Shown here in pieces: positions 54,489-57,869 of a stretch of DNA of 57,967 nucleotides. Numbering within the stretch: the first letter of the stretch is position 1; the number at the start of each line of letters is the position of its first letter. The position numbers and the translations under genes are program-made. The notes under the pieces are model-generated. The model saw only the letters and a program-made list of their open reading frames with translations. It ran no database searches and was not told the DNA's origin. Location: the NCBI GenBank assembly GCA_949287685.1, contig CASEHF010000005.1, forward strand, positions 1 to 57,967, given 5' to 3'. Source of the stretch: an uncultured Christensenella sp. Its GTDB lineage: Bacteria > Bacillota > Clostridia > Christensenellales > UBA1242.

Positions 54489-57107
54489 ATGCAAAAGGAT
54501 ATAGTTATAAAAGGGGCGCGTGAGAATAATTTGCAGAATATAGATTTGAGCATTCCACGCAATAAATTGATTGTATTTACTGGGGTGAGTGGCAGCGGAA
54601 AGTCTACTCTAGCGTTTGATACCATTTACGCAGAAGGGCAGCGCCGCTATGTGGAATCACTTTCGAGTTATGCGCGCCAGTTTTTGGGGCAAATGCAAAA
54701 ACCCGATGTCGATAGTATAGATGGACTTAGTCCCGCAATTAGTATCGACCAAAAGACCACGAGCAACAATCCGCGCTCGACCGTGGGTACAGTGACCGAA
54801 ATTTACGATTACCTACGCTTGCTTTTTGCGCGTGTGGGTATTCCACATTGCCCGAAATGTGGTAGACCTGTTGCAAAGCAAAGTATTGACCAAATAGTAG
54901 ACAAGGTGATTGCTGAAATTCCCGAGGGTACTAAAATGATGATTTTAGCGCCCGTAGTTCGAGGGCAGAAGGGCGAACATACTAAAATTTTAGATAGTAT
55001 TAGGAAAAGTGGCTTTTCGCGTGTCGATATTGATGGTAATATCTATACTTTTGATGAGGAAATTAAACTCGATAAGAACAAAAAGCACTCAATTTCAGTC
55101 GTGGTCGACCGCATTATAATGAAGCCCGACATTGAAAAACGCCTTACCGAGAGTGTAGAGACTGCAATAAAAACTGCTAGCGGGATGGTTGTCGTTATTA
55201 CACCCGACAATCAGTATCTGTTTAGCAATCAATTTGCTTGTCAGCACTGCGGCATTGGTTTTGAGGAGATTACGCCTAGATTATTTAGTTTTAACAATCC
55301 ATTTGGCGCCTGCTCTGAATGTCACGGGCTTGGTTTTACTAGCGAGATTGACCCAGATTTAATAGTCAAGGACAAGTCAAAATCAATTCGCGAGGGCGCA
55401 ATAAATGTGTCTGGCTGGAACCTTGACACAGGGCTTTTTTCACAAAGTTATTTTGAGGCATTGAGTAACAAGTATCACTTTAGCCTCGATGTGCCATTTA
55501 AAGATTTGCCCGAGGAAATAGTAGACATATTAATGTACGGCAATTGCGGCGAGGAACTAGATATTTCTTGGAATACAAAGCGGTTTTCAGGTAACACGCG
55601 CGGCTCTTTTGAGGGGATTATCAACAATCTTGAGCGTAGGTATCGTGAAACTACCAGTGAGTACATTAAGGGCGAAATTGCTAAATATATGCGCGACAAG
55701 CCCTGTAAACTGTGTAACGGAGAGCGGTTGAAAGATGTCGCACTCGCTGTCACAATTTTTGGCAAAAATATTACTAAACTGTGTAATATGAGCATTGATG
55801 AATTGGCGAAATTTTTTACCGATAACAAGTTTAGCGAGAATGAAAATATGGTTGCTGCACCGATTGTGAAAGAGGTGTTATCTCGCCTAAAGTTTTTGCA
55901 AGATGTGGGGTTAAATTATCTTACGCTTTCTCGTAGCGCTGGTAGTTTGAGTGGTGGAGAATCACAGCGTATCCGTTTAGCTACGCAAATCGGTAGCGGG
56001 CTAACGGGGGTTATCTATATATTAGATGAGCCGAGTATTGGGCTGCATCAGCGCGATAACGATAAATTAATCGAAACTTTAAAGCATTTGCGCGACCTCG
56101 GGAATACACTAATTGTGGTCGAACACGATGAGGACACCATGAGAGCCGCAGATTACCTAGTCGATATTGGACCTTTCGCTGGTAAAAATGGCGGTAGGTT
56201 GGTCGCTAGTGGTACTTTACCCGAAATTATCGCTTCAAAAGAATCAATCACGGGAAAATATTTGAGTGGTGAGTGGAAAATTGATATCCCTAGTACTAGG
56301 CGCAAGGGTATAGGCAAGTTTATTACCGTTCGTGGTGCGCGTGAGAACAACCTCAAAAATATAGATGTCGACTTTCCTTTAGGCGTTTTTACCTGTGTGA
56401 CTGGGGTCAGTGGTAGCGGAAAAAGTAGTTTGATTACGGATATTTTGTACCCAGCATTATCAAATAGATTAAATGGTAGCACAATGGCTGAGGGTAGGTA
56501 CGATAAAATCGAGGGACTCGAGAATGTTGACAAAGTAATCGCTATTGACCAAAGTCCAATAGGTAGGACCCCCAGGTCAAATCCCGCGACATATACTGGC
56601 GTGTTTACTCAAATTCGCGAACTTTATGCGCAGACTCCCGATGCGCAGGAGCGCGGATATTTGCCTGGTCGGTTTAGTTTTAATGTGTCGGGCGGGCGTT
56701 GCGAGGCGTGCTGTGGTGATGGTATCAAAAAGATTGAAATGTACTTTTTGCCTGATATCTATGTGCCGTGTGAGGTGTGCAAAGGCCGCAGATACAATCG
56801 TGAAACACTCGAGGTTAAATATAAGGGCAAGAGCATTTACGATGTGCTAGAAATGACCGTTGAGGAGGCGTTGAAGTTTTTCGAAAACCAAAGCCAAATC
56901 CGTTCTAAAATTCAAGCACTCTACGATGTGGGGCTTGGGTATATTAAATTAGGACAGTCCGCTACTACTCTAAGTGGTGGAGAGGTGCAAAGAGTGAAGT
57001 TGGCTACCGAACTTTCTAAAAAAAGCACAGGAAAGACTGTGTATATTCTCGATGAGCCAACAACTGGGTTACACATTTACGATGTGGACAAATTAATTAA
57101 GATTATG
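54489..57107 (+). CDS. uvrA: Excinuclease ABC subunit A, truncated by a chimeric junction
   Basis: About 873 residues of UvrA, then the frame runs on into another gene. Present: Walker A 'GVSGSGKSTLAFDTIYAEGQ', zinc finger 'CPKCGRPV', signature 'LSGGESQRIRLATQIGSG', 'VIYILDEPSIGLHQRDN', second Walker A 'GVSGSGKSSLI', zinc module 'CEACCGDGIKKIEMYFLPD', second signature 'TLSGGEVQRVKLATELS' and 'VYILDEPTTGLHIYDVDKLI'. After 'KLIKI' the UvrA sequence stops; the last ~70 residues, including the His switch of the second ATPase, are missing. The continuous frame ends at 57869 but the rest is LeuRS. As given, this product would not be a working UvrA. Confidence 0.93.
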
Positions 57108-57869
57108 GATTTAGGTATTGTTAAAACTAAAGAACCTTTCCAAAGATTATTCCATCAAGGTATGATTTTAGGTGAAAACAATGAAAAAATGTCTAAATCA
57201 CGAGGAAATGTTATAAATCCTGATGAAATTGTAGAAAAATATGGTGCCGACACTTTAAGAATGTATGAAATGTTTATGGGGCCTTTAGAAGCATCACTAC
57301 CTTGGTCAACACAAAATCTTGAAGGAAGCCGTCGTTTCTTAGAAAGAGTATTTAGATTATTTACTGATGATGAATATAAATCTAAAATTAGTGAAGAAAA
57401 TGATCATAGTCTTGATAAAATTTATCATCGTAGTGTTAAAAAAGTTAGTGATGATATTGAAAACTTACAATTAAATACGGCCATTTCTCAATTGATGATT
57501 TTTATTAATGAAGCTTACAAAGCTAAAACGATTTATTTAAATTATGTACTTGGCTTTATAAAACTTATTTATCCTTTTGCTCCACATATGGCTGAAGAAT
57601 TGTGGGAATATTATGGTCATAAAGAATCGATTACTTATGAACCTTGGCCTACTTATGAAGAAAAATTTTTAGTTGATGATGAAGTGTGTGTGGCTATTCA
57701 AGTAAATGGTAAACTTAGAGCAACAATGTTAATTAGTAAAGATAGTTCTAAAGATGATACTTTAAATAAAGCATTAGCACTTCCTGAAGTTCAAAAACAT
57801 TTACAAGGAAAAGAAATTAAAAAAACAATTGTTGTTGTTAATAAAATAGTTAATATTGTCGTTGCATAA
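57105..57869 (+). pseudogene. leuS: C-terminal fragment of a foreign leucyl-tRNA synthetase
   Basis: About 253 residues fused in frame to UvrA. It begins near 'MDLGIVKTKEPFQRLFHQGM', followed by 'GENNEKMSKSRGNV' (KMSKS), 'YGADTLRMYEMFMGPLEASL' and the anticodon-binding domain, ending 'VVNKIVNIVVA' at the natural LeuRS terminus. It is clearly distinct from the native LeuRS at 13418 ('GENGEKMSKSKGNVINPDDI', 'YGADVLRVYEMFMGPITDAK'). Codons here are far more AT-rich (TTA, AAA, ATT, GAA almost only) than in uvrA. Best read as DNA of another low-GC Firmicutes joined by assembly error. Confidence 0.93.

Follow-up and report, generated by a model that had tools for sequence, protein, structure and literature searches.

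An in-frame uvrA-leuS chimera at a draft contig end is most likely not a real gene fusion

Interspecies chimeric contigs are known from metagenome-assembled genomes, in which foreign DNA of different composition is abruptly joined to host DNA at the end of a draft contig, and the locus described here has the same appearance; it differs from them in presenting two chimeric ends, with different partners, at a single 63-nt gap. Chimeras formed during library preparation by ligation or mis-annealing likewise join unrelated partners with little overlap at the junction, as described for reads that were compared with a reference or sample, whereas the present junction is known from a contig alone (PMC3411829, PMC8674242). 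Chimeric reads have been attributed to single strands that share microhomology and mis-anneal at end repair (PMC8674242), and one study of bacterial rearrangements screens out ligation chimeras by means of longer junction microhomology, with cut-offs of 7-9 bp (PMC3411829).

The draft genome comprises 1,153,183 bases in 58 contigs, with a completeness of 93.82 and a contamination of 0.2. The window, the whole stretch of DNA analysed (57,967 nucleotides), is one of these contigs in its entirety (C5, positions 1-57967), so position 57967 is a contig end. A single open frame of 1126 codons at 54489-57869 encodes UvrA through residue 874 and LeuRS beyond, as the original prediction had stated, and this was confirmed by NCBIfam and by identity to the proteins P0126 and P0001. 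The NCBIfam UvrA profile covers residues 2-874 of the frame (profile positions 3-877 of 943) and the bacterial LeuRS profile covers residues 872-1125 (546-842 of 843). While the predicted switch between the two proteins was retained, its exact limits were not, as uvrA extends to 57110 and leuS begins at 57108/57111. The relevant features are as follows:

13418..15793, plus strand: native leuS, complete, with 791 residues and a stop codon (TIGR00396, 1001 bits; 57% identity to P0001 over its length)
54489..57110, plus strand: native uvrA, codons 1-874, without its 3' end (identity to P0126; NCBIfam UvrA)
57108..57110, plus strand: junction, the GAT common to uvrA and leuS (relatives aligned on both sides)
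57111..57869, plus strand: foreign 3' third of a Bacilli-type leuS with its stop codon (P0001 identity; GC3; LeuRS profile)
57870..57967, plus strand: foreign tail after leuS, with a terminator-like hairpin and the likely end of an IS200-type element (G040 match)

The UvrA half is identical to the intact P0126 (945 aa) at 828 of 874 residues, and the match ends at residue 874, with P0126 residues 875-945 (71 residues) absent and the second ATPase domain incomplete, in agreement with the earlier expectation that a fusion would cost UvrA its C-terminus. This half is 79-95% identical to the uvrA of eight genomes of the same genus, P0184, whose source names a Clostridia bacterium, is a close relative of it, and a uvrA match was present in 35 of the 38 related genomes, in one of them split across two contigs. 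As a separate observation, UvrA residue 833 (56985-56987) is Val in the second ABC signature, LSGGEVQR, and the relatives read LSGGEAQR in 28 of 29 loci, the remaining one (L091) being cut before the signature; the Val may be genuine or may reflect an error in the sequence close to the contig end.

The abrupt drop to AT-rich codons noted originally was also found, with GC3 falling from 0.424 in the uvrA part to 0.123 in the leuS part, against 0.531 in the native leuS and a lowest value of 0.256 in the other 20 open frames of at least 250 codons in the window. Tetranucleotide use showed the same pattern, with a divergence of 0.230 for the initial 800 nt of the leuS part, above that of all 141 native 800-nt windows (maximum 0.171). 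Composition by itself was dropped as proof of foreignness, because in a tetranucleotide ranking by the last 800 nt this contig end is surpassed by nine others of the genome, and the means of this table were left unused because it also took in eight N-only ends. Two low-GC ends, the 3' ends of C40 and C19, contain no frame of 100 codons running off the contig.

Protein comparison assigned the LeuRS half to a different source. Over the 251 residues queried, it matches P0001, a normal LeuRS (800 residues), at 100% identity, and over that region it is 47% identical to the native LeuRS, whose gene is complete, as had been claimed. It begins at profile position 546 of 843, with everything before that position absent, and shows no editing-domain match, in contrast to the native LeuRS; the other two thirds of P0001 have no close match in the genome, the C5 tail being the sole near-identical place. 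The nearest named genome is that of an uncultured Bacilli MAG (L003, 73% protein identity), and the best pieces in the four genomes of its Bacilli family reach 77-79% DNA identity. With regard to the donor genome, no listed match of more than 200 bases exceeded 79-80% identity in these four nearest-family genomes and 395 genomes of the class of that family; the exact junction pattern gave 0 matches in the genome contigs searched, and a plasmid search gave none.

Downstream of the leuS stop codon, a terminator-like hairpin is followed by a GC-rich end, and positions 57867-57967 are identical at 93 of 101 bases to DNA of G040, a genome of the same Bacilli family as L003, where the matching stretch adjoins a frame of 151 aa in which Pfam detects Y1_Tnp ('Transposase IS200 like'). 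The G040-matching stretch includes the hairpin, so that the IS200-type element may or may not take in the hairpin. A scan of 56000-57967 against Rfam returned nothing convincing, its two matches lying far below the gathering score. Most likely the foreign DNA is a single piece that extends from 57108/57111 to 57967 and breaks off at the end of a mobile element; the proposal that the final ~860 nt are non-native and low in GC holds, with the foreign part most likely passing 57869 and reaching the end of the contig.

A true gene fusion that yields a functional UvrA-LeuRS protein would agree with the uninterrupted frame, but such a product would lack both the C-terminal 71 residues of UvrA and all of LeuRS that precedes profile position 546, and the host already has a full leuS. 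No listed match spans the two halves in any of the 38 related genomes, the search with 65 residues at the junction gave a best score of 77 bits, and among the best 120 of its 7474 matches none covers more than 60% of the query and no protein carries both UvrA and LeuRS domains; a known fusion family was accordingly rejected on these two sets of matches. In addition, the matches listed in a literature search include no title on a fusion of UvrA with leucyl-tRNA synthetase. A working fusion is thus so improbable that it hardly enters into consideration.

The junction itself was located by aligning relatives from both sides, for which five of the seven uvrA loci and five of the seven leuS loci were aligned and the remaining four uncounted. 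The uvrA relatives diverge from the window just after the GAT at 57108-57110, and the leuS relatives join it at that GAT, which is the only sequence common to the two genes. To the left of 57110 the leuS of relatives matches the window at 15-21 of 60 bases, and to the right the uvrA of relatives matches it at 19-22 of 60. GAT is preceded by G in the window, where a donor encoding Phe as in P0001 (VLFDLG) would have T or C. It is followed by T in the window, whereas the uvrA codon at this point begins with A or C in each of the 24 relatives for which it was read. As only GAT is shared, neither a low-complexity stretch at 57090-57110, through which the original prediction had the two parts joined, nor a k-mer overlap is the cause of the join.

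This bears on the possibility that no chimeric molecule existed and that the assembler itself made the join at a short repeat, by filling a gap or by forcing contigs to overlap. The draft is fragmented and its contig ends fall in conserved or repeated sequence, which would favour such an error, and the sister genome G001 is broken at the same uvrA stretch (L114, L115; its contigs C4 and C14), its two uvrA contigs overlapping by 95 nt with 1 mismatch. In view of that break, assembly of the stretch may be difficult, possibly as a result of its conservation between species. Against this, an overlap of 3 nt is shorter than any usual assembler k-mer and cannot arise from k-mer overlap, so that some molecule or read carrying the junction must have existed; a pure assembler join is therefore very unlikely, and the junction is most simply explained by a hybrid molecule or read.

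The remainder of uvrA, together with a second and different foreign tail, is at the end of contig C22 of the same assembly (G000), which had not been part of the original prediction. The last native part of uvrA, running from ADYIIDIGPEGG through the stop codon, is found at C22:19169-19321 on the minus strand (P0126 residues 894-944, 82%), and the C22 sequence beyond it is in synteny with what lies downstream of uvrA in the sister species genome G006 (77.5% over 538 nt, in an alignment that begins inside uvrA, and 81.4% over 688 nt). The true continuation of uvrA is thus present in the assembly minus 63 nt, which encode RLVEAGNTVIVIEHNLDVIKV and are absent from both C5 and C22; no listed genome match covers P0126 residues 876-893 beside the C22 tail or supplies the 63 nt at close identity. 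In uvrA orientation, C22 opens with 87 foreign nt, that is 29 codons of dnaG, in frame with the native uvrA tail, and these form a second chimeric contig end at about 19316-19402 (L113, minus strand). The open frame continues across both junctions, on C5 and on C22, which chance permits.

The 29 foreign residues of C22 match three proteins only, at 90-93% identity, of which two were scanned; P0224 and P0226 both contain the primase domain that binds DnaB, and P0226 has the DnaG core domains in addition. The host itself encodes a DnaG on C14 of its assembly, with 34% identity to P0226, and the nearest DnaG to P0226 in 391 genomes of the host's class belongs to another family of the same order as the host (55%). 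The foreign piece of C22 gave no NCBIfam match and no phage match, and it finds only itself in the 391 genomes of the host's class.

These two ends were weighed against a real insertion, in which uvrA took up foreign DNA through illegitimate recombination, losing 63 nt, and the two edges of the insert lie on C5 and C22. The two native ends belong to one gene, separated by 63 nt, and each continues into foreign DNA, the very short overlaps fit end joining, the tail on C5 breaks off at the end of a mobile element, and the other testable contig ends appear clean, all of which would agree with an insertion. On the other hand, the two tails at this gap are unrelated, which counts against one real insertion; the edges come from different organisms, an AT-rich Bacilli leuS versus a dnaG nearest, among the 391 genomes of the host's class, to another family of the host's order, with a GC of 0.283 in the C5 leuS piece versus 0.483 in the C22 dnaG piece, and on this difference in origin the single insertion was disfavoured. 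Moreover, the insertion was seen in none of the 38 relatives, and it would leave UvrA without its second ATPase, although the two ATPase sites are each termed essential in one account of the protein (PMC6486640). We consider a real insertion very improbable, and we give equally little credence to a uvrA truly broken by captured gut-bacterial DNA, with leuS and dnaG fragments flanking a patchwork insert and a LeuRS tail replacing the end of the second ATPase. If true, either event would represent an interspecies capture of DNA that destroys a repair gene.

The other contig ends were surveyed for comparable joins. Open frames of at least 100 codons run off 44 of the 108 readable contig ends, the 3' ends of C5 and C22 lying outside those 44; 40 of the 44 were scanned and 21 had a Pfam match (at 1e-7), which reached within six residues of the contig end in 12. 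By reading of the matches, unrelated families were joined in none of the 21, in a scan that is blind to short tails on other contig ends. These clean end frames indicate that foreign tails are not the rule in the assembly, and two of them at one gap need a local cause. Some end frames resemble halves of one broken gene, such as an aminotransferase V on C10 and C44, and twelve pairs of contig ends share exact overlaps of 21-99 nt, which would resemble the output of multi-k short-read assembly. Dispersed intergenic repeats of families D1-D9, around GTCATCCTGAG...GACGAAGGATCTATTCC, were also observed in the window at 571-804, 10365-10522, 28060-28705 and 32128-32584, and similar sequence occurs at some of the overlapping contig ends of the genome, suggesting that these repeats may break the assembly.

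On the sequence evidence, the halves of the frame match two different kinds of organism, and the frame is very probably a chimeric contig end with a chimeric molecule or read as its source. The misassembly proposed originally stands insofar as an artefact at the contig end, arising in library preparation or assembly, is most likely; the join by overlap does not, a chimeric sequenced molecule fitting better. A hybrid sequencing molecule or read would have linked the host uvrA to leuS from a second bacterium, a member of the Bacilli that was probably present alongside the host, the assembly would have lost ~63 nt of uvrA, and chimeric reads would have extended both dead ends, the path on C5 following the donor leuS until it was halted at the IS200-type repeat. 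In the living cell, uvrA would be intact and no fusion protein would be made. A chimeric contig end means that the UvrA-LeuRS fusion protein is probably nonexistent, and the fusion is most likely not a real feature. The case also serves as a quality warning, since an in-frame chimera passes gene calling, here in a genome whose contamination is estimated at only 0.2, and the frame could be recorded in databases as a UvrA-LeuRS fusion and as a spurious second leuS.

Elsewhere in the window, three very long open frames were observed at 36172-40794 (1541 codons), 41773-46344 (1524 codons) and 48289-51675 (1128 codons), the last of which has a signal-like start and a membrane-anchor-like end and resembles, by eye, a surface protein.
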